Origin: an uncultured Clostridia bacterium
Lineage (GTDB): Bacteria > Bacillota > Clostridia > UBA1381
Direction of reading: 5' to 3'
Assembly (NCBI GenBank): GCA_949742185.1
Contig: CATJNN010000159.1
Coordinates: 1-33,198, forward strand
DNA length: 33,198 nucleotides
The translations under genes and the position numbers were made by a program. The notes beneath the pieces are model-generated. The model was not told where the DNA came from. It was given only the letters and a program-made list of their open reading frames with translations, and did no database searches. Shown here piece by piece: positions 431 through 23,618 of the stretch. Positions within the stretch are counted from its first letter, which is position 1; each line of letters opens with the position of its first letter.

Positions 431-1807
431 TCAACGTTTTATAAGCGTTGCCACTTGCTTTGTCAATTCGGGCAAAATAAGATTTGAGAGGTCTCCCGTA
501 TAGTGGTTAAAGTCATTTGGATACCATTTTAAAAGCTCTTCCGCTTTATTTGCCGCCGCTTCATCAGCCGCTGCGCCGGAGCCGCCTGCAGCGTCACGGG
601 CTTTTCTGACCTCGGCGGTCATAAGCTCGTCTGTTATTGCGCCGATGTCTACATATCCCAGAATATTTTTATCGTCTTTTCTGGATTGGTAAACCTCATA
701 CAGAGCAACGTCAAAATCGTCGTAACGCTTCCCGGTAAAGGTTTCGGTCTGCTCGTTGTACACCTTGCCTTTATACGAGCCCCAGTTTCCGTTTGGCGTA
801 TAGCTTCCCAGAATGACCTTTCCGCCCATTTGGATGACGGAGTCAATATAATAATTGAGCTGTGCTTTAAAGTCTTCTATGGTTCCGCTATAGCCGTTTG
901 TTCCCATGCCGCTGATAGACACAACATCGTTCGGGCGTATGGTTCTGAGAACGGAGTCTAAAAGTCCTTCGTTATAGAAGCTCGTTAGCTGTCTTGCGCC
1001 TCGTCCCATATTGCGGAAGTTATCGACCGCGCCGGCAAGTTCCGGATAGGATTGCCATTTGCCCGCGAGCACGTAGCCCCACGATGGATTTTGTGCGACT
1101 GTGGAATCGCCTATTTCAATCCATGCAGGCTTTTCGCCGGCTGTTTTCACCGGCTGTTCCTCAATTTTTACAGAAGCAAGTTTACCTGTTCCCGCGAGGT
1201 TTAAGTCGAGTATGCCTTTTCCAACAGTTTCTCCGTCGCCGACAACTGCTACTTCATATGTTTTTGAGGTCAGCGCAGAGTTTGTATCTTTTTTTATTCC
1301 TGTTAAATATCTGTTATATTTTTCAAGATATAGCGTCCCCTCATAGCTGACCGTTATGTTATAAACTTTTCCGGCAGCGACGTTGGCTTTGAATACGATA
1401 TCGCTTCCCGATAAATATCCGCTGTTATTTTCAGCCGCCCCCTCTATGCCGAAGCCAAGCGCGTCATCGTAGGCGGTTTCTGCAGTAACCATGGTCTGGT
1501 TATCTGCCGCGGCGCCGCTTCCGAATGAAAAATTCAAGCTGTAGATTATAACGGAGGTTTTTCTTGTAATTGGCTGTCCTGCAGTGTTTTGCGCTGAAGC
1601 GATAACTACTGCTTTTGAAGCCTCCGCATCCGGCGATACAGTGATTTCTCCGGTAATTTCATTTATGCTGACGCCTCTTACGGGAGTTTCCAGAGAATAT
1701 GAAACCGCGCATCCGTCAATTTCATTTCCAAGTCCGTCGCGCACAACAGCAGAGCACTCTGCAGTTACGCTTTCGCCAGATGGGATGAGAATACTTTTCG
1801 GCTTATA
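431..1807 (-). CDS. 3' part of secreted esterase: Ig-like domain, CBM35-like segment and CE12/YesT-like rhamnogalacturonan acetylesterase (SGNH); probably continuous with 1803..4313 through a +1 frameshift
   Basis: SLNFSFGSGAAADNQTMVTAETAY..., then WIEIGDSTVAQNPSWGYVL (GDS block), GRGARQL, GTNG and a C-terminal DFNH. The ORF-track start (1921) gives a basic, non-homologous-looking N-terminus (MRETTRHIRCIAQ...). The sensible protein begins at YKPKSILIPSGESV. Confidence 0.75.
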   Translation of the reverse strand, partial: YKPKSILIPSGESVTAECSAVVRDGLGNEIDGCAVSYSLETPVRGVSINEITGEITVSPDAEASKAVVIASAQNTAGQPITRKTSVIIYSLNFSFGSGAAADNQTMVTAETAYDDALGFGIEGAAENNSGYLSGSDIVFKANVAAGKVYNITVSYEGTLYLEKYNRYLTGIKKDTNSALTSKTYEVAVVGDGETVGKGILDLNLAGTGKLASVKIEEQPVKTAGEKPAWIEIGDSTVAQNPSWGYVLAGKWQSYPELAGAVDNFRNMGRGARQLTSFYNEGLLDSVLRTIRPNDVVSISGMGTNGYSGTIEDFKAQLNYYIDSVIQMGGKVILGSYTPNGNWGSYKGKVYNEQTETFTGKRYDDFDVALYEVYQSRKDDKNILGYVDIGAITDELMTAEVRKARDAAGGSGAAADEAAANKAEELLKWYPNDFNHYTGDLSNLILPELTKQVATLIKR

Positions 1808-4313
1808 CAAGCTCAAATTTGTCAATCGGCACAGGCGTTTCCGTGGGCTCCGACGGTGGTTCGGGATAATCAGTCCATGCGCCTGTGCTATACAGCGTAT
1901 ATGCCGTGTTGTTTCCCGCAATAGCGCCTACAGAATTGTAAGCCTCCTGATGATAGTGATACTGATCCCGCATTAGAGCCGCATATTCGTCGGTATAAAA
2001 AGAAGCGACTGCCGTGATATTTTGTTCTGTGTCCGCAAGTTCTTTCTGCGCTAAATTTATCGCCTTATACCGAGCGTCCTTAACCTCGTCAATCGCGACC
2101 GCCCCGCTTGTTTTGCAGCGACCGATTCTTATCATGAACATATCCGTAAGCCCTGTTTGTGATTTCATCGCATCAAAAATTGCTTTTGTGTTTGCTTTGT
2201 ATAACGCGGCGCTTCTGTTGCTGTCCGCGTCTGAACAGCCTTGACACCACACCATAAATTGTTTGCCTACAGTATAACCGCAGCTTTCAAGATACGCCTT
2301 AGCCTCGTTATATCTTGTCGCCGCTTCGTTTATTTTCGCACTGTCGTTCCACCATTTCGACTCAGTTCCTCCGCGGGAGCACTGCACGCCTACAAGCGGC
2401 GTTCCCGCTGTCTGATAGTAGCTTTCCATAAATGCGGAGACCATATCTCCGCTGCGGCGGTCGACGCCGCTTCCGCTGTTATCGTTAACCGCGTCGTTAT
2501 TTTCATGTTTGCCGAAAGGTTCCGATACGGTTGTTAAAACCCCGGGTTCGGTAATGGGATGATATTCAAAGCCATGTCCGGGAGCGCAGGGAACCGCATT
2601 TTCATAATCTCCGCGTCCAGCCATATTGGACTGTCCCATAAATATTGCTAAATCTACGGTTTTGATTTCGGTTTGTTCTGATAAAATCCATTCCTCAAGC
2701 CCTATTTCAGCGGCGGCTTTAGCTGTGATTTTGTGCCCCTCATACGGATATTCCGTATATCTTGCGTCAATTCCAGAAGTCTGCAGACTGTTAATCATAG
2801 TTCTGACATTGGAAACAGAAGTCGTATCGTCATTATATCCCGCAAACGCCCAGACCTTGCCGACGGGTTTTGCCGTTCCCGCGCCTGCGATGGTGATAAT
2901 TTTATCTGCGCCCGAAGAAAGCGCGGCGTTCACGCTTTCCGACTGACCAATCACTATGATCTCCCGCGCCGTTGTACGCACCTCGTCTACAAGCGCGGTA
3001 ATATCGGAAAATATCTCCGCTGACTGCGGCGCAATAAGCGCGGCTCTACCGCTGAGTTTATCAAAAAATGGCTTTGCGTCATATAACTGAGAATATGTAT
3101 CTGTTCCGCACCGCATTTCGCTTGCTAAATAAATTACTGCCGGCGCGTCTGTTTGTTCTTTAATTCTGCAAGGATAGCCGGCTATTGTTTTAAGCTCGTA
3201 GCCATCCGTAACGGTTATGTCTGCGGGCGGTTCGGTCGAATTAAATTCAGAGATTGTCAGATTGTCAAGTGAAATATATCGTTCACCCGCTGTTTTTGAG
3301 CGCGTAGACGATATTTCCAGTTTTTTAAAATCGGATATGGTACCTTCGGGAAGTTCTCCGGAAAAAGAGGTGTTTCCGATTGTGACAGTTACAGTTCTTG
3401 CATTATAATCAATATCAGTTTTTATATGGTGATTTCCAACGCCGCCCCATGCCGAGCGCACAGCTTTGTCGTCTGCCGCGACGGCGCCGCATATCATAAG
3501 ACCTTTTGCGGGGGTTTCATCATATGGATGAACCTGAAAATCTACAATGATTTCTTCGCTGTTTTTTACAGAATAATTGAAAAATTGCTGACCGAGAGCC
3601 TTTGAGTGGTCTATAGCGTCAAATTCAATCGTAATGTTGTTTCGTATAGAGTTTTTCATGTCGACAGTAACTGAGCCGCTTTTTGTATCGCTCGCAGGAA
3701 ACTGTATCTCTCCGCCGCTCCATACGGCGCTGCCGCCCATGACGGGTACATTTTTGCCTTCGGACGGCGGAGCGGCGTCAAAGCTCCATGAAGTGGACGG
3801 AGACTGATATTCTTCGGCTTCGCCGCCGCTTACAGGCGGCTGCTCTTCCGTGGCTGACTTAAACGAGAGCGTTTTAACAGCAGACGTTCCTTTTCTGTAT
3901 CCAAGCTGAAATTTTTGTCCTTCCGTTAATTCCATAGAAACACTGCTTCCGTATTGATTGGAATATTGTCCGTTAATAAAATAGCTGATGTCTTTTCCGG
4001 TATACGAAACAGTGCCGTTGGACGGAGCCGTAAATTCAATATATGAGCCGGTTAGTTTTTTTGCATCCGCTCCGGTCAGATGAACCGTACCGTCTGCATC
4101 GACGTATGTGCCCTCGTATGTAAGATGGGCCGTAGTGTTCGCGTCAATAGATATTATGTCCGAAGCTGTGCCGTAGTCCGTTTTTATGCCGTCTTTAACG
4201 AGCAGCGTAAAGTCGCACATGTAATCGGCATCCTCGGCCAAAACAACAGATGGTATAAATGATATAAGTATCGCCATTGCTGTTATGAGGCTTATAATTT
4301 TTGATGATTTCAT
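1803..4313 (-). CDS. Secreted multi-domain esterase, N-terminal part: signal peptide, beta-rich modules, degenerate alpha/beta-hydrolase-like domain, SASA-type (sialate O-acetylesterase-like) esterase domain
   Basis: Signal peptide MKSSKIISLITAMAILISFIPSVVLA; KVWAFAGYNDDTTSVSNVR...YTEYPYEGHK (alpha/beta-hydrolase C-terminal part); VDLAIFMGQSNMAGRGDYENAVP (SASA GQSN-AGRG motif). RBS ggag upstream of the ATG. Confidence 0.8.
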   Translation of the reverse strand: MKSSKIISLITAMAILISFIPSVVLAEDADYMCDFTLLVKDGIKTDYGTASDIISIDANTTAHLTYEGTYVDADGTVHLTGADAKKLTGSYIEFTAPSNGTVSYTGKDISYFINGQYSNQYGSSVSMELTEGQKFQLGYRKGTSAVKTLSFKSATEEQPPVSGGEAEEYQSPSTSWSFDAAPPSEGKNVPVMGGSAVWSGGEIQFPASDTKSGSVTVDMKNSIRNNITIEFDAIDHSKALGQQFFNYSVKNSEEIIVDFQVHPYDETPAKGLMICGAVAADDKAVRSAWGGVGNHHIKTDIDYNARTVTVTIGNTSFSGELPEGTISDFKKLEISSTRSKTAGERYISLDNLTISEFNSTEPPADITVTDGYELKTIAGYPCRIKEQTDAPAVIYLASEMRCGTDTYSQLYDAKPFFDKLSGRAALIAPQSAEIFSDITALVDEVRTTAREIIVIGQSESVNAALSSGADKIITIAGAGTAKPVGKVWAFAGYNDDTTSVSNVRTMINSLQTSGIDARYTEYPYEGHKITAKAAAEIGLEEWILSEQTEIKTVDLAIFMGQSNMAGRGDYENAVPCAPGHGFEYHPITEPGVLTTVSEPFGKHENNDAVNDNSGSGVDRRSGDMVSAFMESYYQTAGTPLVGVQCSRGGTESKWWNDSAKINEAATRYNEAKAYLESCGYTVGKQFMVWCQGCSDADSNRSAALYKANTKAIFDAMKSQTGLTDMFMIRIGRCKTSGAVAIDEVKDARYKAINLAQKELADTEQNITAVASFYTDEYAALMRDQYHYHQEAYNSVGAIAGNNTAYTLYSTGAWTDYPEPPSEPTETPVPIDKFELV

Positions 4314-4345
4314 AGCGTTTCTCCTTTTGATATTCTTTTGTACTA

Positions 4346-4374
4346 ATTATACAATGATTTAAATTATTTCGGAA
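4346..4374 (-). promoter_or_regulatory. putative sigma-70-type promoter for the esterase gene
   Basis: On the minus strand, TTCCGA (4369-4374), 17 bp, TATAAT (4346-4351). Confidence 0.5.
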
Positions 4375-11664: not shown

Positions 11665-14600
11665 ATGGAAAAGAGGAAATTAATTTCACTTATTCTTTCA
11701 CTGGCAATGATGTTCAGCGGTATAGCGATACCTGTTACAGCGGAAGAAGCGGGAAGCGGCGGCGAAGCCAAAATAACTTTGCCGGATGGTTACAGTTTTA
11801 TTGACGCTGCGCATAACGGGAATGTCGTTGTTGCGATGGCAAAGGATGGAGCCAAAACTGCGGCAAAGCTTTATTATTCTGCTGACGGCGGAGTTACATG
11901 GGCTGAGAGTGAAAATCAGCCGTTAGCAAGCAATGCTGGAATTACAAAAAATCTAAATTCACAGCAGCAGCTTGTTTACTGGGAGCATAATAAGATTTTT
12001 GTTGCACACGGGACCGGCAAAACATATACATCCTCAGATGGTGTAAATTGGATGGATAATACGGCTATACACTGGACAACGGATACAATGCTTACAGTTT
12101 CAGGAGAAAATCTTGTGTTTGCCGGATTGGCTTCTGCAAACGCAACAAGCGATTTAGCTACAAAACAATTTGCAAATAATAAATATAGTATACCAAGCAC
12201 TACAGGTATAAATTTTAAAGTTGTAGCGGCAAAACCTGCGGAGGCGGACGGGACGACAAGCGTATTGGTAGGAGACAAAGGCAGACTTCATACAATGACA
12301 TTTAAGCCTGAGACGCCAAAGTACACATGGGCGGCAGGCGGTAATAATGCTTCTGCGGCTGCGGTTACAGCAAATCCATACGACGCGCTTTATGCTAAGA
12401 CGGCTGACCAGTATCTCGTAATTGACGGTTCGGAAACGGTTGTTGCGGTGAAAGACGCAAACACAATCGTAACGTCTGCCCCAAGCGCAGGTACAAAAGT
12501 GACGGGTATAGGCGCAAGCGACAAGTATATTGTCGCGGGAATGGAAAACGGCAAGCTGTATTATACGGCGAACGCCGAGATAACGGCGGACACAGTGTGG
12601 ACAGAAATTTCTGCTGCGTCTGATACGACTGCTTGTACAGAGACTGTAAAGAATATTGAATTTTTAGACGACGATAATTTCGTTGCATTCAGCGATACAC
12701 AAGTTTATAAGGGTGATAAGGACGGTTATAAAAATATTAACGATATTGAAGCGTCGGTAACTCCTCCGACGCAGGAGCCGACAGAAGAACCGACAACTCC
12801 GCCGACGGAAGAGCCGACTCCCGAGCCGGAGAAAACATTTGTTAAAGACGGGTATCATCTTATGGACGTTGCGCGCAAGGGAAATACGCTTGTGGCAATG
12901 GCAAAGAGTGAGAATAATGCATTAGGTCAGCTTTATTATTCGGACGACGGCGGCAGCACTTGGCAGAATACCCAAAACAATCCGTCGGGAATAAGAGATA
13001 ACTCGCTTATATCGGGGAATGATTTGTCTCAGCAGCAACTGGTTTACTGGGCAGAGAAAAACATTTTTGTAGCGCATTCGGCAAAAAGCACTTATTCTTC
13101 CGCGGACGGTATCACATGGGCAGAGGAAGCAAATCTGCACTGGAATTCAAATACAATGATTGCGACGTCCGGGAAAGAGTTTGTAGCGGGAACAAAAGAC
13201 TTGATGAGTGCGACAAGCGACATGTCGGCGAAGAAATTTGACGACAATAAAAAAGATTTGGGTACAACAGGATACTATACTGCCGCTATTGCGGCAAAGC
13301 CTGCCGACAGCGAAGGCAATATCGAAATGATTGTAATAAATAAAGCGGTCGGGGACAATCCTGCGACAATATGCGGCGCGGGCTTTAAGGCGGAAGGCGG
13401 CGCATATACATGGACCGATGTAAAGAAGGGTTACGGAAAGTCGGGAGTTTTGTACGATGCTATGTATTCCGAGAAAGCGGGACAGTATCTTGCAGTCAAC
13501 GGCACGGCTAACCTTCAGGTAATCACACAGGCGAACGCACAGACTACGCCGGCGCTTTCTCATATAGCCGTTCTTGCGGACGACAAGGTAACCGGAGTAA
13601 ACGCCAACGCTAATCATATAATAGTCGGAATGGAAAGCGGCAAAATGTTTTACACAGCCGCGGCTCCGCTTGCGTCAACCACGGCATGGACAGAAATTCC
13701 TGTTTTGGAGGGAGCAACAGCGGCGACTGAGCCTATAAAAAATATTGAGTTTTTAGACGACGGAAGTTTTGTGGCTCTCGGAGCTACGCAGGTATACAAA
13801 GGTGATATTACAGGATATAAAAATATAAACGATAAGAGTGAAGAACCGACGCCAACTCCAACAGAAGAACCGACGCCAACGCCGACGGCAAAACCGGAGG
13901 AGCCGGAAGACCCAAGCAAAAATCCTTTTTACGGAGTTCAGCTTATGGGCGGCGCATATAACGGCGAAGTTTATGTTGTGTACGGAAACGTTACAAATGC
14001 GGACGAGTCGGCGGACGCCAAAAAGCTTGGCAGAATATTTACATCAACCGATTGCGTTACATGGGAAATGACAGCGGATAACGTTACTACGTTCAGCACC
14101 CAGAAGAACGGGGCAGTATGGTGGGAAGCGCAGAATAAATTTGTTATATCGGGAGTGACCGATATGTTCCCGCAAACAAGCGGAGGCACCGTAGGTCTTG
14201 CTATGGTTTCCGCCGATGGCTCAAAGGATAGCTGGGAAATGGTTACAACAACAGATTTTCGTGTGAAGACGGATATTGTTGTCAGAGGAGATAAGCTTTA
14301 CACAACAAATCATGGAAGACGATTCCGAATGTTTACGGGATTAGACGTCGCAGAGGGAATGACAGAAATCTTGCTTAACGGCGCAAATCATTTAGGAGAA
14401 GCACAGGGGTACTACGAAACAATCGCAATGAGCAATTCGGCAGGCGCGGATAATATTCCTTCAGTATTTTTGGCATATAACGGCAGCGCTATGGTGAGAG
14501 ACAAAGACTCGGCAGAAGCTGAGGAGGCAAACAGATGGAAAAAAGTAACCACAGTAGGCGGCAGCGGGCAGGTTTCAGACGCTGTTTATAGTGACGCGCT

Positions 14601-15279
14601 TGGGAAGTTTGTAGTTACTCTTAATGGTGGATACAGAACATCGGTGGTCAGTCTTTCGGGCGGTAACGGAGTTCAGGGACCGGTAGTAAGCGGCAAGGTA
14701 TGCTCTGCGCTTGATACAAACGGAGAGGACTTTATGTTTGCTTGCGAGGATGGCGGAGTGTATACTGCCGCAGACGACGAAAACTTTATTGTGTTTGACA
14801 GCGAGGGTAAGGTTGTAAGCAAAGCGGAATTAAAGAAAGTTCCGCTTGCAAAAGGCGAAGAAAATACATTGCCTGTTACTAATGTAATCACTATGGGCGA
14901 CAAGTTCCTTGCAATAGCAACTGATGGAAAGAACAGCGACATACTCACAATTTCTAAAGCGGGCGATTCATATTCATACGTTAAATTCAGCGACAGCTTA
15001 AAGCCTGAGCCTGTTCCTGAAACGTACGATATAAAATATGAAAACGGAAGTGCTGTTATTACAGCTCCAAACGGTACATACGCGCTGATATTTGCGGCAT
15101 ATGACGACAGCGGTATACTGACGAGCGTAGAATATAAAAATGTTGAAATCGCAAACGGCGAAAAGACAGAGACGCCCGAAACATTTACATTGGACGGAGC
15201 TGCAAGCGGAAAGGTAATGCTTTGGAATAATATGAAGGATATATTGCCGCTGGCAATGGTGGAAATCCCTTTCAACTAG
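11665..15279 (+). CDS. Secreted protein with three BNR/Asp-box beta-propeller-like repeats, P/T/E linkers and a C-terminal accessory module; probably continues by -1 frame into 15273..17396
   Basis: Signal peptide MEKRKLISLILSLAMMFSGIAIPVTA; Asp-box motifs YYSADGGVTW, YTSSDGVNW, YYSDDGGSTW, YSSADGITW, FTSTDCVTW; the repeat-closing TQVYKGD..GYKNIND occurs twice. RBS gggagag. Confidence 0.8.
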   Translation: MEKRKLISLILSLAMMFSGIAIPVTAEEAGSGGEAKITLPDGYSFIDAAHNGNVVVAMAKDGAKTAAKLYYSADGGVTWAESENQPLASNAGITKNLNSQQQLVYWEHNKIFVAHGTGKTYTSSDGVNWMDNTAIHWTTDTMLTVSGENLVFAGLASANATSDLATKQFANNKYSIPSTTGINFKVVAAKPAEADGTTSVLVGDKGRLHTMTFKPETPKYTWAAGGNNASAAAVTANPYDALYAKTADQYLVIDGSETVVAVKDANTIVTSAPSAGTKVTGIGASDKYIVAGMENGKLYYTANAEITADTVWTEISAASDTTACTETVKNIEFLDDDNFVAFSDTQVYKGDKDGYKNINDIEASVTPPTQEPTEEPTTPPTEEPTPEPEKTFVKDGYHLMDVARKGNTLVAMAKSENNALGQLYYSDDGGSTWQNTQNNPSGIRDNSLISGNDLSQQQLVYWAEKNIFVAHSAKSTYSSADGITWAEEANLHWNSNTMIATSGKEFVAGTKDLMSATSDMSAKKFDDNKKDLGTTGYYTAAIAAKPADSEGNIEMIVINKAVGDNPATICGAGFKAEGGAYTWTDVKKGYGKSGVLYDAMYSEKAGQYLAVNGTANLQVITQANAQTTPALSHIAVLADDKVTGVNANANHIIVGMESGKMFYTAAAPLASTTAWTEIPVLEGATAATEPIKNIEFLDDGSFVALGATQVYKGDITGYKNINDKSEEPTPTPTEEPTPTPTAKPEEPEDPSKNPFYGVQLMGGAYNGEVYVVYGNVTNADESADAKKLGRIFTSTDCVTWEMTADNVTTFSTQKNGAVWWEAQNKFVISGVTDMFPQTSGGTVGLAMVSADGSKDSWEMVTTTDFRVKTDIVVRGDKLYTTNHGRRFRMFTGLDVAEGMTEILLNGANHLGEAQGYYETIAMSNSAGADNIPSVFLAYNGSAMVRDKDSAEAEEANRWKKVTTVGGSGQVSDAVYSDALGKFVVTLNGGYRTSVVSLSGGNGVQGPVVSGKVCSALDTNGEDFMFACEDGGVYTAADDENFIVFDSEGKVVSKAELKKVPLAKGEENTLPVTNVITMGDKFLAIATDGKNSDILTISKAGDSYSYVKFSDSLKPEPVPETYDIKYENGSAVITAPNGTYALIFAAYDDSGILTSVEYKNVEIANGEKTETPETFTLDGAASGKVMLWNNMKDILPLAMVEIPFN
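12763..12831 (+). repeat. low-complexity Pro/Thr/Glu linker-coding repeat
   Basis: Encodes PPTQEPTEEPTTPPTEEPTPEPE between propeller repeats 1 and 2. Confidence 0.8.
13843..13909 (+). repeat. low-complexity Pro/Thr/Glu linker-coding repeat
   Basis: gaaccgacgccaactccaacagaagaaccgacgccaacgccgacg..., encoding EPTPTPTEEPTPTPTAKPEEPE between propeller repeats 2 and 3. Confidence 0.8.
15267..15273 (+). promoter_or_regulatory. candidate -1 ribosomal frameshift heptamer C_CCT_TTC
   Basis: Zero frame ATC CCT TTC AAC TAG; the heptamer is in the X_XXY_YYZ register one codon before the stop; the -1 frame continues with beta-helix protein sequence. Confidence 0.5.
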
Positions 15280-17396
15280 AGGACGGTCAGGCTATTTATG
15301 TTTCCGCTGTCGGAGACGACAGCGGAAACGGGGATTTTTACTCACCTGTAAAAACACTGGAACGCGCGATTGAGCTGGCTTCAGCAAAAAAAGAAGACGC
15401 GCAGGAAGAAATTAAAATATATATGCGGGGAGGCGTATACCATGTCTCGAACACGATTAAAATATCGGATTCCTACAATGAGTATGCGCCGCTCCGTATA
15501 TGTGCATATCGGAATGAAGATGTGACTATAAATGCAGGAATTGATATTCCTCTTTCGGCTATGGTGGCTGCGAATGCGGATTTTATAAACGCAGTTATCA
15601 ACAAGCCTGCGAGCGGAAAGATTTTGCAGTATAATCTGAGAGACGCAGGGATTGACGATTACGGAGAAATTTCTCTGCGCGGTTTTCTTATTTCCGATGA
15701 AAAGGAGGCGCAGGCAGAGCTTAGTTTAAACGGGCAAATGCAGCAGCTTGCGCGCTGGCCTAACGATGACTACACGGGGCTTATAAAGCCTGCGGATAAT
15801 TCCGATGAATATGGGAAAAGAAGTAAGGCGGGGATTGCCAATGGATGCAGCTTCAGAGTGGATTTTGACCGTCCGTCACGCTGGAGCAAACCGGAAGACG
15901 TATGGCTTGCGGGAACATTGGGACCTAATTATAATTTTGACTATTATCCGGTGAGTCGCTTTGACGCAGAGGAAAAACGGGTTTATTTAAGCCGCGGCGC
16001 ATTGCAGAAATATTATACCGAGCCGTATTACAGATTTGAGAATATTCCGGAAGAGCTTGACGCTCCGGGTGAATATTATATAGACAGACAAAGCGGCATG
16101 CTGTATTTTTATCCGCCGGAGAATACGCCGGAAAACTCAGTGCTGACAATAACAATGTCTACGCCGACATTGGATTATGGCGCGGGGAAAGCGCCGAATT
16201 CAATGTTCAGACTGGACAACTGCAAAAATATCAGTTTTGAAAATCTGACATTTAAAGGCGGACGCGGTTCGGCTGTGACAGGCAGATATAACGATAGGAT
16301 ACAGTTTATAAACTGCGACATTAACAGTTTTGGCGAGCATGGAATGCGATTGGACTATTCCACAAATATTACAGTAAAAGACTGTCGCGTGCATGACGTT
16401 GGTCAGGATGGAATGCAGTTTACAAATTGCGGGGATTATGCAAATCTTATTCCTAATAATATTCTTGTGCAAAATAATGAGATTTATAATTTTGCAAGAT
16501 TAGAGCGGGATTATAAGGCGGGAATAAATTTTGGATACAGAAGCGTAGGCGCTACTGCCGCTCATAATCATATATATAACGGACCTCATACGGGAATGAT
16601 TTTCTATGGCGTTAACAATAGTATCTATGGAAATGAGTTTAATAATCTTGTTACGGAATTTAATGATATGGACGCGTTATATACAAACAACTCCAACTAC
16701 CCTTGGGAAAGAGGAAACAAGATTTACGGAAATTACTTTCATGACATTGGAAGAAGCTCTATGAACGGCAGACATCAGGTTAATGTGAGAGCCATAAGAA
16801 CGGATAACAAGGGCTGCGGGCTTAATATATATGAAAATTTGTTCTATAGAATAGGCGACGGCGGAACCGGCAGAGGTAACAACGGAATAGGCGGAATAAC
16901 CGCTGAAGGTACGCGCAATAAAATTTATAATAATTTGTTTGTAGATTGCAATGAAGCGTATACGAATACGCAAAAGTATATTGAAATTGCCGAGGCTGAA
17001 GACGGGACGCTTTATCCGAATACAGGCACAATTAATGGAGCCAGTGTGGCTGATTTGAAGAAAGAGATGCAGGCAAGACTTCCTGTTTACGGAAAGCAGT
17101 TCCCAGAGCTTTACAGTTTCTTTAATGAGCATCCGAATATGTCAAAGACAAATGAATTTAAAAATAATATGATAATAAATAGGGCTTTTCCGCTTAGTAT
17201 ATATAACGGAGAGCAGAATAAAGAAGGATTTAGAGGTTCGGAGATGCTTGTTGATGCGTCAGGTAATTTTGTTGGAACTGAGGATCCGGGATTTATTTCA
17301 TATTCAGATGGAAATTTGGAGCTTTCGCCCGAAGCAGCGGCAAAGGTTGAGGGACTCCCAAACTTTGATATGAGTTCATTTGGTGTAATTAAATAA
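15273..17396 (+). CDS. Right-handed beta-helix (GH141-like) module with no recognizable own start codon or signal peptide; likely the 3' part of a frameshift fusion with 11665..15279
   Basis: The -1 frame reads QLEDGQAIYVSAVGDDSGNGDFYSPVKTLERAIEL...IYMRGGVYHV, collinear with paralogs AVYVAESGSDSNDGSADAPFKTIEKARDKV...VYLRGGEYRL (17427 gene) and LYVASNGNDSNDGSEGAPFATVQKAKDTV...VYMRGGTYYM (27940 gene). The ORF-track ATG (15423) is inside this conserved domain. Confidence 0.8.
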   Translation, partial: QLEDGQAIYVSAVGDDSGNGDFYSPVKTLERAIELASAKKEDAQEEIKIYMRGGVYHVSNTIKISDSYNEYAPLRICAYRNEDVTINAGIDIPLSAMVAANADFINAVINKPASGKILQYNLRDAGIDDYGEISLRGFLISDEKEAQAELSLNGQMQQLARWPNDDYTGLIKPADNSDEYGKRSKAGIANGCSFRVDFDRPSRWSKPEDVWLAGTLGPNYNFDYYPVSRFDAEEKRVYLSRGALQKYYTEPYYRFENIPEELDAPGEYYIDRQSGMLYFYPPENTPENSVLTITMSTPTLDYGAGKAPNSMFRLDNCKNISFENLTFKGGRGSAVTGRYNDRIQFINCDINSFGEHGMRLDYSTNITVKDCRVHDVGQDGMQFTNCGDYANLIPNNILVQNNEIYNFARLERDYKAGINFGYRSVGATAAHNHIYNGPHTGMIFYGVNNSIYGNEFNNLVTEFNDMDALYTNNSNYPWERGNKIYGNYFHDIGRSSMNGRHQVNVRAIRTDNKGCGLNIYENLFYRIGDGGTGRGNNGIGGITAEGTRNKIYNNLFVDCNEAYTNTQKYIEIAEAEDGTLYPNTGTINGASVADLKKEMQARLPVYGKQFPELYSFFNEHPNMSKTNEFKNNMIINRAFPLSIYNGEQNKEGFRGSEMLVDASGNFVGTEDPGFISYSDGNLELSPEAAAKVEGLPNFDMSSFGVIK
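15300..15329 (+). other. perfect 13-bp hairpin with GAGA tetraloop
   Basis: gtttccgctgtcg-GAGA-cgacagcggaaac, 26 nt downstream of the candidate slippery heptamer. Confidence 0.75.
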
Positions 17397-17426: not shown

Positions 17427-20111
17427 GTGAAGAAGATTGCTATTATGCTTGCAGCGGCTATGACAATTCAAATGAGCGCTGCCGCCGCGTATGCAGACTA
17501 TGCGGATACCGCCGGTCATTGGGCGGAAGGCTTCATAAGCAGCCTGACCGCCGAGGGCATTGTGGAAGGGGATAGCGTAAGCTTCCGACCCGACAGCCAT
17601 GTCAGCGTGGCGGAATTCATAAAAATGACGCTGGCTGCAATGAAGATTGACGTTGCGCCGCAAACGGCAAACTGGTCGGCTCCGTATATTAAAAAAGCGT
17701 TAGAGGAAAAATTGATATATGCGGATGAAATTGTTGATTTTTCAAAGCCTATAACGCGTGGAGAGCTTGTTAAAATATGCGTGAGAGCTATAGATGCGAA
17801 CGCTGTGGCAGGCAATGAGCGAGAGCAGTTAATATCGCGTATTTCAGACTATTATGATATTCATAACAGCGACAAGGAATATGTGCTTGCGGCGTACGCT
17901 AATAAACTTATTTATGGTTATGAGGATAACAGCTTTCAAAGTGAAAGATATACCACAAGAGCGGAAGCGTGCGTTATAATAGATCGCATGATTTCAGCGG
18001 GTAATTTCTCTAAGCCGGACGACGGAGGCAATCAGACAGTGATAGACGCAGGCGACGCAGTATATGTCGCGGAGTCGGGAAGCGACTCAAACGACGGTTC
18101 GGCGGACGCTCCGTTTAAGACTATCGAAAAGGCGCGGGATAAAGTGCGCGAGGTTATCGCGGCGGGCGCTTATCCTAAGACAGGAATGACAGTTTACCTG
18201 CGCGGCGGGGAATACAGGCTTGACAAATCTCTGGAGCTTGGAGCGGGAGATTCGGGAACGGAGGAGGCGCCTGTTGTATACGCGTCATATCCGGGAGAAA
18301 CAGCGAGAATTACAGGCGGTGTGAAGCTGCCGTACAGTGAGTTTAAGAATATTTCAGACGATATGGCGTCTAAGCTGATTGATAAATCAGCGGCGGGAAA
18401 GGTGCTGGAGCTTGACCTCGGCAAGCTGGGAATTGAGGAGCTTGGTCAGCTTTCGAGACGAGGATATCTTATTGCGGCGGAGGGAGTTCCGCAGGCGGAG
18501 TTATATGTAGACGGAAGCAGAATGCAGCTTGCGCGCTGGCCCAATAAGGACTGGGTCGGTACGACTGAAATTGTCAGAAGCGGCGCGAGAAGCAAAAACG
18601 GAGTTTTGGAGGGCGCGGTCTACAAGATTGACTATGACCGTCCGACAAAGTGGAAAAACAATATTAACGAGATTTACACAGCGGGCGTTCTGGGACCGAA
18701 CTATTTTTACGGATATTTCCCGATAGAGAAAATCGACCCCGGACAGATAACGCTTAAGGAAGGCTCGGTAACAAGCTACTATTCAAAGCATTTTATTCGA
18801 TACGAAAACATATTTGAAGAGCTTGACGAGCCGGGCGAATACTACATAGACCGTAACACAAAAATGCTCTATATGTATCCGCAGGACGGATTGGGCGCGA
18901 ACTCCGATATAATGCTTTCACAGATTAGCGAGAATTTGATTGCAGGTTCAAATGTAAGCAATGTTACATTTAAAAATCTGAAAATGGATTGTTCGCGCGC
19001 GGGAGTTGTGCGTATAAATGGAGCGAAAAACGTCACGGTTGAAAACTGCGAGGTCTCCGGAACAGGTACGAACGGCGTGTATTTAAACGGTACTGGCTGC
19101 ACGGTTAAAAACTCGATAATCCATGATATAGGAAGTACGGGAATCAGTATAACGGGCGGCGACTACGATAACATTGTTTCAAGTGAGAATATGGTTACGA
19201 ATAATCATATTTATAAGGCGGCGCAGATTGAACGCTCGTATCAGACGGGTATTACCGTAGGCCACAGGTCAGTAGGCACGACGGTGAGTCATAATGAAAT
19301 TCATGATATGCCTCATGCCGCGGTTATTATATACGGACCTAATCACACGATTGAATATAACAACATATATGACTCGGTTAAGGAATTCCACGATATGGAC
19401 GCTATATATATGAATGTATATCAGTATCCGTGGGAGCGCAATGTCATAATAAGAAGAAACTATATTCATGATTTGGGACAGCAGACGTTTACGGAAAAGC
19501 AGATGAATGTTGCGGGAATAAGAACGGATAATAACGGAAACGGTTTGCAGGTGCTTGAAAATGTGTTCTACAATATAGGATATCAGAACGCAAACGGAAT
19601 ACGCGGCGTGTGCGCTCAGGGTATCGACAATGTTGTGAATGGTAATATGTTTATAGACACTTCAGGAACATATGAAGCCGCGCATTCATATAATCCGGAC
19701 GCGAAGTGGGATGTGCAGTCCGACAGCGTTAAGGGAACTTATGAACAGTGGCAGAAATACAGCCCGAAATATTCAGAGCAGAATCCTGAGGTTGCGGATT
19801 TCTTTAAACATCATTTCGGAGCATATCAAAACGGAAATAAATTTAAGAATAATCTGGTGGTGAATATTAAATTCCCGCTCGGCACGGCAAACGGCGCTCC
19901 GGCGGCTCAGGGCTTTTTTGCAGCGGAGCAGCTTGTTGAGGCTGAGGGAAATATAGTCACAAAATCCGACCCCGGATTTGCAGACTACAGCAAAGGAGAT
20001 TTCACCCTTAAAGACGACAGCGAGGTTTACAGCAAGAATAAAGATTTCCCGAAGATTGACTTTAAAAATATAGGTCTGCTGAAGGACGAGGCTGTGGGCG
20101 TGGTAAAATAG
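17427..20111 (+). CDS. SLH-domain protein with right-handed beta-helix (GH141-like) module
   Basis: GTG start with RBS aggaggg; signal peptide; YADTAGHWAEGFISSLTAEGIVEGDSVSFRPDSHVSVAEFIKM (SLH); YVAESGSDSNDGSADAPFKTIEKARDKVRE...LRGGEY...EPGEYYIDRNTKMLYMYP. Confidence 0.88.
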   Translation: MKKIAIMLAAAMTIQMSAAAAYADYADTAGHWAEGFISSLTAEGIVEGDSVSFRPDSHVSVAEFIKMTLAAMKIDVAPQTANWSAPYIKKALEEKLIYADEIVDFSKPITRGELVKICVRAIDANAVAGNEREQLISRISDYYDIHNSDKEYVLAAYANKLIYGYEDNSFQSERYTTRAEACVIIDRMISAGNFSKPDDGGNQTVIDAGDAVYVAESGSDSNDGSADAPFKTIEKARDKVREVIAAGAYPKTGMTVYLRGGEYRLDKSLELGAGDSGTEEAPVVYASYPGETARITGGVKLPYSEFKNISDDMASKLIDKSAAGKVLELDLGKLGIEELGQLSRRGYLIAAEGVPQAELYVDGSRMQLARWPNKDWVGTTEIVRSGARSKNGVLEGAVYKIDYDRPTKWKNNINEIYTAGVLGPNYFYGYFPIEKIDPGQITLKEGSVTSYYSKHFIRYENIFEELDEPGEYYIDRNTKMLYMYPQDGLGANSDIMLSQISENLIAGSNVSNVTFKNLKMDCSRAGVVRINGAKNVTVENCEVSGTGTNGVYLNGTGCTVKNSIIHDIGSTGISITGGDYDNIVSSENMVTNNHIYKAAQIERSYQTGITVGHRSVGTTVSHNEIHDMPHAAVIIYGPNHTIEYNNIYDSVKEFHDMDAIYMNVYQYPWERNVIIRRNYIHDLGQQTFTEKQMNVAGIRTDNNGNGLQVLENVFYNIGYQNANGIRGVCAQGIDNVVNGNMFIDTSGTYEAAHSYNPDAKWDVQSDSVKGTYEQWQKYSPKYSEQNPEVADFFKHHFGAYQNGNKFKNNLVVNIKFPLGTANGAPAAQGFFAAEQLVEAEGNIVTKSDPGFADYSKGDFTLKDDSEVYSKNKDFPKIDFKNIGLLKDEAVGVVK

Positions 20112-20126
20112 AAAGGATGAGTGTAA

Positions 20127-23100
20127 TTGAAGAAAAAAATATTGTCGTTTATAATTGCGGCGGTTCTGCTGTTTCAGATAGCCGCAATACCGAACGTATC
20201 AGCGGCGGGGGTTACGCTTCCGGGCACGTATACGTTTATTGACACCTGTTACAGCCCTGTAAACGGCGGCACATATGTTGCGATGGCAAAGAATTTTACC
20301 GATGCGCAAAATCATCCCGCAAGAATTTATGTATCGCAAAACGGAGAGGACTGGACAGAGGCAAAAACTTTTAGTCAGGCGAAGCATTATTACCAAGCAG
20401 ACGTCAGACAAAATATCGTATGGTGGGAAAAAGAGCAAAAGTTTGTAGCTATTATACTTAATCATCTCTGGTTTTCAGAGGATGGTTATACATGGGAAAT
20501 GGTGCCGGAGGAGATTTTTAAACGCTCCAATGCTGTTATTGCAACAAACGGACAGCGGCTTGTGGTACTTGCAAAAGCATCTATGCTGGTATTTGACGAC
20601 CTGGAGAATCCGCCTGTTGAAACATATATCTTTGATAAGAAGCCAGACAATAACACATGTGGTAAAACGATAGGTATTTCTCCGGAAGAACCATATCTAT
20701 ATTTTGGAACTGACCAATATAAGATATGGCTGTGTGACAGCCGTATAGGGCCTAATGGTGATCCGGAACGACCAGACACATCTGCGCAGCTGACTGAAAA
20801 TATCGGCGCAATACCGTACGACATGGAATGGGTTAGCGGTTTAGAAGGCTGGATTACGGTGAATGGGAAGGCTGTGCTGCGCGTTGTTAATAATGCGGAT
20901 AAGCCAAGCTATAGCTCTTTAAATGAAGTGATGCTTTCAGACGGTACAGCCAACAAGGAAGGTTTTACGGCTGTTGCTGCAAATGATGAAAATATTGTGT
21001 TTGGTACGGAAAAAGGCAAATTCTACATTGCTCCAAACGACAAAGAGGTGGTAAAGGGAACGATTCCGTTTACGGTTGTTGAAGCGGGATATCTCGATAA
21101 CACGGAAGAAATCCGTTCAATAAGCGCGGCGGGAGACGGAATGTTTTTTGCGGTTTCTAAGACGAAGATATTCCTGATTATGCAAGAGGACGACGGCGTG
21201 TGGCGTTTTTATGATGTCGGCGGTTCCAATATATCGCTTGAAAACGAGACCCGCTTTGAAATCCCTGCGTCAGGATCATACACAACAACATTCGCGCCGG
21301 TTAACTATGATTATAAAGGTAATGTTTCTTCCGATAATATTGTAAGCTTTGATTTAATATCAGAGCTTCCGACAGGAGTAACATCGGAAAAGCTTAGCGA
21401 TGCAAGTGCGCAGTTTACGATTGACAGCACGGTTTCCGGCGGACACGAGATTAAATATAAAGCTGTGACTGAGAGCGGAAAAACACAAGAATTTGTTATA
21501 ACTGTAGTGGACGAAGATCATATTGAAATAACGGGAAATGATAATATGGCAATTCCTCTGGAAGGCGACGAGGCAGAGAGGTATGAGTATCTCTTTGAGA
21601 TGATAGGAACCGACGGAAATACAATGGACCGTGAGATTGTTGTAAATGTGGAAACTATGCCGGAGGGAGCGAGCTTTGACAGCAGCTCAAACACTTTTAT
21701 CATAGGCGAGAATACGGAGCCCGGCGAGATTGTGTTTACGGCGTCTTCTGCAGTTAAACCTGAAAATAAAGCGGAAAAACGTGTTAATGTGTCAAGACGC
21801 AAGCCTGTAAAAATAGTTTTTGACGAAGCGCCAGACGCGGTGTACATTCCTTATGAGGGGAAAGCGCTGTATAAGTATTCAGCTAAGCTGTATGACCAGA
21901 CTGATAGAGAGCTTTCCTATGAAAAAGTGAAATGGAGCGTTGAAGCGAAGGATATTCCGAGTATGGACGGCGTTGCGATGGAAGAGAACAGAGGCGAGCT
22001 TTCGCTAATCAGCACATTAATAAAAGGTACTGTTACAATAACGGCGGCTTCCGCAAGCGACGCGGAGCTTATCATACAAAAGGATGTTAAGCTTAATTAC
22101 ACTGACCGCCGTATAGTGGATGACGACTTTGCTCAATTTAGTCTGGACACGTCTGTGCCAGCCGAGGGAAAACTTCCGCTTGCGTCAAGAGGACCTCAAG
22201 GAAGCACAATTAAATGGCGCAGCACGGATGAGAACGTTATAACAACAGACGGAACGGTAATTCGTCCGAGCCGCGAGGATAAAAAGGTTACGCTCACCGG
22301 AGCGTGGAAGTATAACACGGCGACGATTGAAAGAAAATACGAGTTTTTAGTGAAAAAAGCAGAGACGCTTTGCGTTAACGGCGATTTAAAGGAGAACAGC
22401 ACAAAGGGCTGGAATCCGAAAAATAATACGGAATTATCCGTTATTGAGGAGAACGGCAAGAACGTGCTTAAATCAAGCGGTACGGGCGCGTATCAGACAA
22501 TAACTTTCACAAACAACAGCAGTTACGGCTTTAATGCGAGAGTGAAAGCGCCGGCAAACGGAAAAATAAGATTAATGTCTGAAAAGGTTGGCAAAATTGC
22601 GGAAATCACGTCTAACGGACAGTATCAGGATATAAAAGCGTCGTATGATTATCGCAAGCAAAAGAATTCTTTTGAGGACAAAATTTATCTTGAATATACC
22701 GGTGATTTGCTCGTAGACGAGCTTAAGGTGTATGAGATTACTCTGGAACTTAACGCTGCGGCGGCTGCAGTGAATAAGGCAGTGTATAGCAAAAAGGAAA
22801 AGGATATAAATGCGGCTGCGGATTTGCTTGACGCTTTTTATGATTTGCCGGTGCGCGACGAGCTTAGAGATAAGCTTGACAAAATAAACAGCTCTTCAAG
22901 CGGTGGTTCCGGCGGCTCGGGAGGTTCCGGCGGCGGTGGCGGAGGAAGTTCATCAAAGAATCACAGCACCGCGCCGTCCACAGTGATTATGGGGAACAAT
23001 ACAAATGCAATTCCAACGCCGCCTAAGAAAGAGGACAACACAGCAGACGAGCTTGATACATATCTTTTGAAGTTTAAGGATATGAAAGGGCACTGGGCGA

Positions 23101-23618
23101 GAACAGACGTTGAGCAAATGGCTGAGCTCGGCGTTATAACCGGAGACGGAAACGATATGTTCCGTCCTGACGACGAAGTGTCAAGAGCGGAATTTGCTGC
23201 AATGATAACGCGCGCGATGGGACTTGAGCCGACAGCGTACGAAAACAGTTTCTTTGACGTTGTAAGCGGCGACTGGTATTCGGGATATGTTCAGACAGTG
23301 CGCAGTAATAATTATATGAACGGCTACGACGGATTGTTTAATCCGAATGAAGCGATAACGCGCGAGGAACTTGCAAAGGTTATTGTAGCGGCGTATAACG
23401 CCAAAACAAATACAAAGCTGGAAACAGGAAAGACCCTGTATTTCAACGACCTCGACAATATAAGCTATTGGGCGTACGACTATATAGTGGAGGCGGCTGA
23501 CATGGGCTTTATCAACGGAATGACAGAGGAGCTTTTCGCTCCGAAACAGCATGCGACACGCGCGCAGACTGCCGTTATGTTAAAGCGCGTTTACGATAAG
23601 CTTAATCCGGCGCAGTAA
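20127..23618 (+). CDS. Secreted BNR-like propeller protein with Ig-like/CBM-like domains, Gly/Ser linker and three C-terminal SLH domains
   Basis: TTG start with aaagga RBS; signal peptide; YVSQNGEDW and WFSEDGYTW Asp-box-like motifs; SSSSGGSGGSGGSGGGGGGSSS linker; FKDMKGHWARTDVEQMAELGVITGDGNDMFRPDDEVSRAEFAAMITRAMG and two further SLH repeats. Confidence 0.85.
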   Translation: MKKKILSFIIAAVLLFQIAAIPNVSAAGVTLPGTYTFIDTCYSPVNGGTYVAMAKNFTDAQNHPARIYVSQNGEDWTEAKTFSQAKHYYQADVRQNIVWWEKEQKFVAIILNHLWFSEDGYTWEMVPEEIFKRSNAVIATNGQRLVVLAKASMLVFDDLENPPVETYIFDKKPDNNTCGKTIGISPEEPYLYFGTDQYKIWLCDSRIGPNGDPERPDTSAQLTENIGAIPYDMEWVSGLEGWITVNGKAVLRVVNNADKPSYSSLNEVMLSDGTANKEGFTAVAANDENIVFGTEKGKFYIAPNDKEVVKGTIPFTVVEAGYLDNTEEIRSISAAGDGMFFAVSKTKIFLIMQEDDGVWRFYDVGGSNISLENETRFEIPASGSYTTTFAPVNYDYKGNVSSDNIVSFDLISELPTGVTSEKLSDASAQFTIDSTVSGGHEIKYKAVTESGKTQEFVITVVDEDHIEITGNDNMAIPLEGDEAERYEYLFEMIGTDGNTMDREIVVNVETMPEGASFDSSSNTFIIGENTEPGEIVFTASSAVKPENKAEKRVNVSRRKPVKIVFDEAPDAVYIPYEGKALYKYSAKLYDQTDRELSYEKVKWSVEAKDIPSMDGVAMEENRGELSLISTLIKGTVTITAASASDAELIIQKDVKLNYTDRRIVDDDFAQFSLDTSVPAEGKLPLASRGPQGSTIKWRSTDENVITTDGTVIRPSREDKKVTLTGAWKYNTATIERKYEFLVKKAETLCVNGDLKENSTKGWNPKNNTELSVIEENGKNVLKSSGTGAYQTITFTNNSSYGFNARVKAPANGKIRLMSEKVGKIAEITSNGQYQDIKASYDYRKQKNSFEDKIYLEYTGDLLVDELKVYEITLELNAAAAAVNKAVYSKKEKDINAAADLLDAFYDLPVRDELRDKLDKINSSSSGGSGGSGGSGGGGGGSSSKNHSTAPSTVIMGNNTNAIPTPPKKEDNTADELDTYLLKFKDMKGHWARTDVEQMAELGVITGDGNDMFRPDDEVSRAEFAAMITRAMGLEPTAYENSFFDVVSGDWYSGYVQTVRSNNYMNGYDGLFNPNEAITREELAKVIVAAYNAKTNTKLETGKTLYFNDLDNISYWAYDYIVEAADMGFINGMTEELFAPKQHATRAQTAVMLKRVYDKLNPAQ
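22900..22961 (+). repeat. Gly/Ser-rich linker-coding repeat
   Basis: Encodes SSGGSGGSGGSGGGGGGSSS before the C-terminal SLH domains. Confidence 0.8.

Follow-up and report, generated by a model that had tools for sequence, protein, structure and literature searches.

A very probable conserved −1 ribosomal frameshift joining a secreted propeller protein to a GH141-related enzyme in gut-type Clostridia

Introduction

Conserved −1 frameshifting in bacteria is known mostly from mobile elements and phages; dnaX is one of the few chromosomal genes with it. High-level frameshifting has been reported in E. coli at the heptamer C_CC.U_UU.C (PMC4066793). Stimulators are also known to act at a distance, from 4 kb away in barley yellow dwarf virus and from 44–104 nt away in IS elements; T7 gene 10 shows an unexplained effect across 200 nt (PMC5009743). 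A literature search for frameshifted carbohydrate enzymes, with subscription papers outside its scope, returned the archaeal fucosidase as the one relevant example and no bacterial case. This enzyme, the alpha-fucosidase encoded by fucA1 of Sulfolobus, is a glycoside hydrolase produced via −1 frameshifting, on A_AAA_AAT; the shift occurs within one enzyme, and most relatives are full-length proteins in a single frame (PMC8211752).

The locus described here shares with fucA1 the probable production of a glycoside hydrolase-related protein by a −1 shift, but it is bacterial, and the shift would join two different proteins. The long-range stimulatory helix predicted for it resembles that of barley yellow dwarf virus, although in this and related plant viruses the contact spans 4 kb of viral RNA, whereas here it would span about 590 nt inside the coding sequence of a bacterial gene, in which the near element need not be an internal loop as in the plant-virus signals. 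Apical loop–internal loop pseudoknots of the IS3411 type are also similar, in that bacterial −1 frameshifting is combined with loop pairing at a distance, but they belong to mobile elements and have the 44–104 nt range of IS elements (PMC5009743).

Genomes and orthologs

The window, that is, the whole stretch of DNA analysed, comprises positions 1 to 33,198 of contig CATJNN010000159.1 (C159) in assembly GCA_949742185.1 of an uncultured Clostridia bacterium (UBA1381), a draft of 321 contigs that is 81% complete. Orthologs were sought in 150 relatives, then in the family and then in the order. Twelve were obtained including the window, from six genera; the 11 further ones (g6, g8, g10, g14 and g15), labelled L033–L043, are 42–76% identical to the window, and none beyond the 12 was found in the 95 genomes searched across the order. 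The hosts are twelve gut-type Clostridia species, among them Ca. Ornithomonoglobus intestinigallinarum and Lachnospiraceae bacterium MD329 (L033), whose genome is strain-named, carries no MAG label and is probably from an isolate. Among 391 genomes of the class, CCCTTTCNNNTARNNGACGGTC was present in three, always at this same locus, and the cassette was not found elsewhere. Below, ‘the nine’ are the orthologs with C_CCT_TTC and ‘the other three’ are L041, L042 and L043. Scores for RNA structure (z) were calculated against codon-preserving shuffles.

Results

Frames, slip site and stop

The upstream, 0-frame ORF (11665–15279, plus strand; 1204 aa) encodes a signal peptide (recognized by eye), beta-propeller repeats with traces of BNR/Asp-box motifs and a C-terminal beta-sandwich. 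An earlier note on this DNA had given its end as ATC CCT TTC AAC TAG, and the sequence reads so: the slippery heptamer C_CCT_TTC (15267–15273) is in register, one codon before the stop TAG (15277–15279). The −1 frame is open, as also claimed there, from 15231 to 17396 (plus strand; 721 codons), and its product contains a beta-helix domain. The GH141-like character that the note had proposed for this domain was borne out by matches to the GH141 enzyme BT_1002 (5mqp), with E 6.6e-15 by hmmsearch and E 4e-21 by Foldseek; BT_1002 is the top fold match and a significant sequence match, although identity in the fold alignment is 15–16%, and the likeness rests on fold and sequence. Within the −1 ORF the first ATG stands at 15423, inside the conserved domain, and the claim that no earlier start exists holds for ATG, GTG and TTG alike. 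No signal peptide was found on the enzyme. When the end of the 0-frame protein was modelled as a beta-propeller plus beta-sandwich, the final strand stopped at the heptamer codons, and therefore the short product looks complete in the model.

All 12 orthologs have the beta-helix ORF at −1 to the propeller ORF and keep the slip site and the stop, which stands 17–23 nt ahead of the IYV-type start of the beta-helix domain. The slip site precedes the stop by 0–1 codon in every ortholog, and in 10 of the 12 it is an in-register X_XXY_YYZ heptamer: the nine have CCCTTTC, and L041 has T_TTT_TTT, a run of seven Ts, within TTTTTTTC. The remaining two, L042 and L043, have TCT TTT TAA, a tetramer-type TTT-TAA site. 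Upstream of the domain, no ATG, GTG or TTG occupies a conserved place in the enzyme ORF of the 12 orthologs, and the first in-frame starts fall at differing positions within it. In neighbouring ORFs of at least 400 aa, 0.5% of codon positions carry an in-register X_XXY_YYZ, and four of 41,049 positions carry C_CCT_TTC; judging by the ORFs included, these four are the junctions of the window, L033, L037 and L039. The presence of C_CCT_TTC at the window junction is more than chance. None of the 12 orthologs encodes a propeller–helix fusion in a single frame. Large beta-helix ORFs in two genomes (G007 and G028) were considered as candidates for such a fusion, and a motif search showed none. This homolog check supports the programmed frameshift that the earlier note had suggested. 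A peptide spanning the junction of the fusion would contain, in its window form, MVEIPFQLEDGQAIYVSAVGDD.

Conservation around the junction

Enzyme identity to the window is 66–76% within the nine and 42–46% in the other three, and the enzyme is therefore taken to be under selection. The last propeller region is 26–41% identical to the window; the junction has thus stayed fixed while the surrounding protein drifts. In the nine species, synonymous conservation in the enzyme ORF is highest over the ten codons that follow from the heptamer onward (observed/expected 1.69). Pro is invariant in 18 columns, and only at the CCC of the heptamer is its codon invariant too; of 47 columns with an invariant Gly, only the one in element 1 (see below) has an invariant codon. 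A second peak of synonymous conservation, at about codons 195–212, includes GACCGTCC. The ORF of the nine contains five invariant runs of at least 7 nt, namely CCCTTTC, GACGGTCA, TGCAGCTT, GACCGTCC and ATGGACGC, two of which are mutual reverse complements. At the RNA level, the first 81-nt stretch downstream has a mean z of −2.84 over the 12 sequences and ranks first of about 84; this structure in excess of codon-preserving shuffles is a candidate stimulatory structure.

A candidate long-range helix

The two complementary runs suggest an RNA contact across part of the enzyme ORF. Element 1, GGACGGTC (15281–15288, plus strand), the proposed 5' arm of a long-range helix, lies 8–15 nt past the heptamer; its core GACGGTC is invariant in the nine species, and eight of them have the full element. 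Element 2, GACCGTCC (15867–15874, plus strand), is its perfect reverse complement, is invariant in the nine and stands 576–594 nt downstream of the heptamer, about 590 nt. It occupies the 16-nt apical loop (15861–15876) of a distal hairpin (15850–15887, plus strand) whose 11-bp stem pairs 15850–15860 with 15877–15887. Across the nine species 92 of its 99 cells are paired, the top score among the 36,846 stem placements scanned in the ORF. The score is equalled when this stem is read one base further inward, and the stem geometry was picked after the sequence was seen. One pair of the stem has changes on both sides, and the covariation is modest (reached by 12 of 500 shuffles); the region is conserved at the protein level too. 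The paralog at 17427 lacks the frameshift and has a start and a signal peptide of its own; it carries GACCGTCC in three of eight species and only 5–7 of the 11 distal-stem pairs.

Between the two elements lies a local hairpin (15300–15329, plus strand; 13 bp in the window), and hairpins at a similar place, in varying register, are present in nearly all 12 orthologs. The earlier note had considered the spacer from the heptamer to this hairpin, at 26 nt, longer than usual. The hairpin does begin about 26 nt out, but the conserved element 1 stands at about 7 nt, the classical spacing of a stimulator. The pair of elements, which that note had missed, is likely to be the stimulator and is new here. 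No Shine–Dalgarno stimulator was seen by eye to be conserved upstream, in line with the note, purine runs being limited to L040 and the window. Partners for GACGGTC on the 5' side of the slip site, common to the species, were not found either. In L033 the candidate long-range helix has 7 bp. Searches for long-range pairs in the other three orthologs gave chance-level matches only; in L042 (4546–4640) and L043 (5980–6070) a 10-bp local stem stands about 6 nt downstream of TTT TAA instead.

Gene neighbourhood

The neighbouring genes encode a SASA esterase, GH88-type and GH28 proteins, SLH proteins and an ABC transporter, which suggests a pectin or rhamnogalacturonan cluster. At 20127–23618, two genes past the one with the frameshift, a propeller-like protein that carries Ig and SLH domains is encoded. 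On the minus strand a second frame break, near 1803–1927, separates two ORFs (1803–4346 and 431–1927), one a SASA-esterase ORF and the other SGNH-like. Homologs that are 75% identical (L070 and L071) form one open frame, so this break has the look of an ordinary indel or an error of assembly, unlike the junction at 15267.

Discussion

The split between propeller and enzyme could in principle have arisen in one genome, by a recent inactivating indel or an assembly error. The draft state of the source assembly and the minus-strand break, which looks just so, would favour such an origin, but the same frame relation and slip site recur in 12 separate assemblies and the downstream ORF is strongly conserved; this alternative, left standing by the earlier note, is rejected as having next to no probability. 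Transcriptional slippage, yielding mRNAs with one base changed, requires longer homopolymers. The seven-T run of L041 might serve, but the runs in CCCTTTC reach three at most and the direction is invariably −1, so that slippage is very improbable. Somewhat less remote, though still improbable, is that two separate proteins are made, the enzyme being translated by re-initiation or from its own start. The stop lies directly ahead of the enzyme domain, and translational coupling may coexist with recoding (PMC3711429). Against this reading, no conserved start precedes the domain, the first starts being scattered inside it, the enzyme would have no signal peptide, and the invariant heptamer would be left unexplained. 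A conserved −1 programmed ribosomal frameshift at the junction is, on the comparison of 12 sequences, very probable.

What stimulates the shift is less certain. The frameshift might be real and the 590-nt pairing coincidental, local structures acting as the stimulators: nearly all 12 orthologs have local hairpins, the other three do without the long-range pair, and RNAfold on 750 nt favours the long-range helix in just three of the nine species, both elements being invariant in all nine, with no compensatory changes. However, two of just five invariant runs are complementary, the chance of an exact 7-nt complementarity among five runs being 0.1–0.2% on a rough estimate, and the hairpin whose loop contains element 2 is the best conserved of the ORF. 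Coincidence is thus possible but rather unlikely, and the long-range pair, the case for which is invariance plus complementarity, is the stimulator with fair probability.

Given the conserved frame break, the slip signal and the likely RNA contact, some ribosomes should shift and make the fusion; its occurrence and efficiency, and the helix as its driver, are what we infer. Ribosomes would translate the secreted propeller protein up to C_CCT_TTC, where the P- and A-site tRNAs (Pro and Phe) could re-pair to CCC TTT. Those that do not shift would terminate within one codon, and the propeller protein would be released. Those that do would read about 700 more codons to give a propeller–GH141-like fusion, which in the window species would be about 1,900 aa long and would be exported through the signal peptide of the propeller. 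In the nine species, GGACGGTC would pair with GACCGTCC in the distal apical loop, with the local hairpin between them; the other three, which are more distant, would rely on local stems and on slip sites of a different kind. The purpose may be a fixed ratio of the propeller alone to the propeller–enzyme. The fullest form of this model, in which a non-mobile bacterial chromosomal gene has its −1 frameshift stimulated by an apical-loop helix at about 590 nt within the shifted ORF, and later melting of the helix by each shifted ribosome limits the output of fusion, is one for which we see about equal grounds for belief and doubt.

A conserved frameshift by which a secreted enzyme acting on carbohydrates is attached to a propeller would be unusual. 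If confirmed, the 590-nt contact would mean that bacteria control frameshifting through RNA contacts made at a distance inside a coding region, and the frameshift would explain why gene callers list two genes here and overlook the secretion of the protein.
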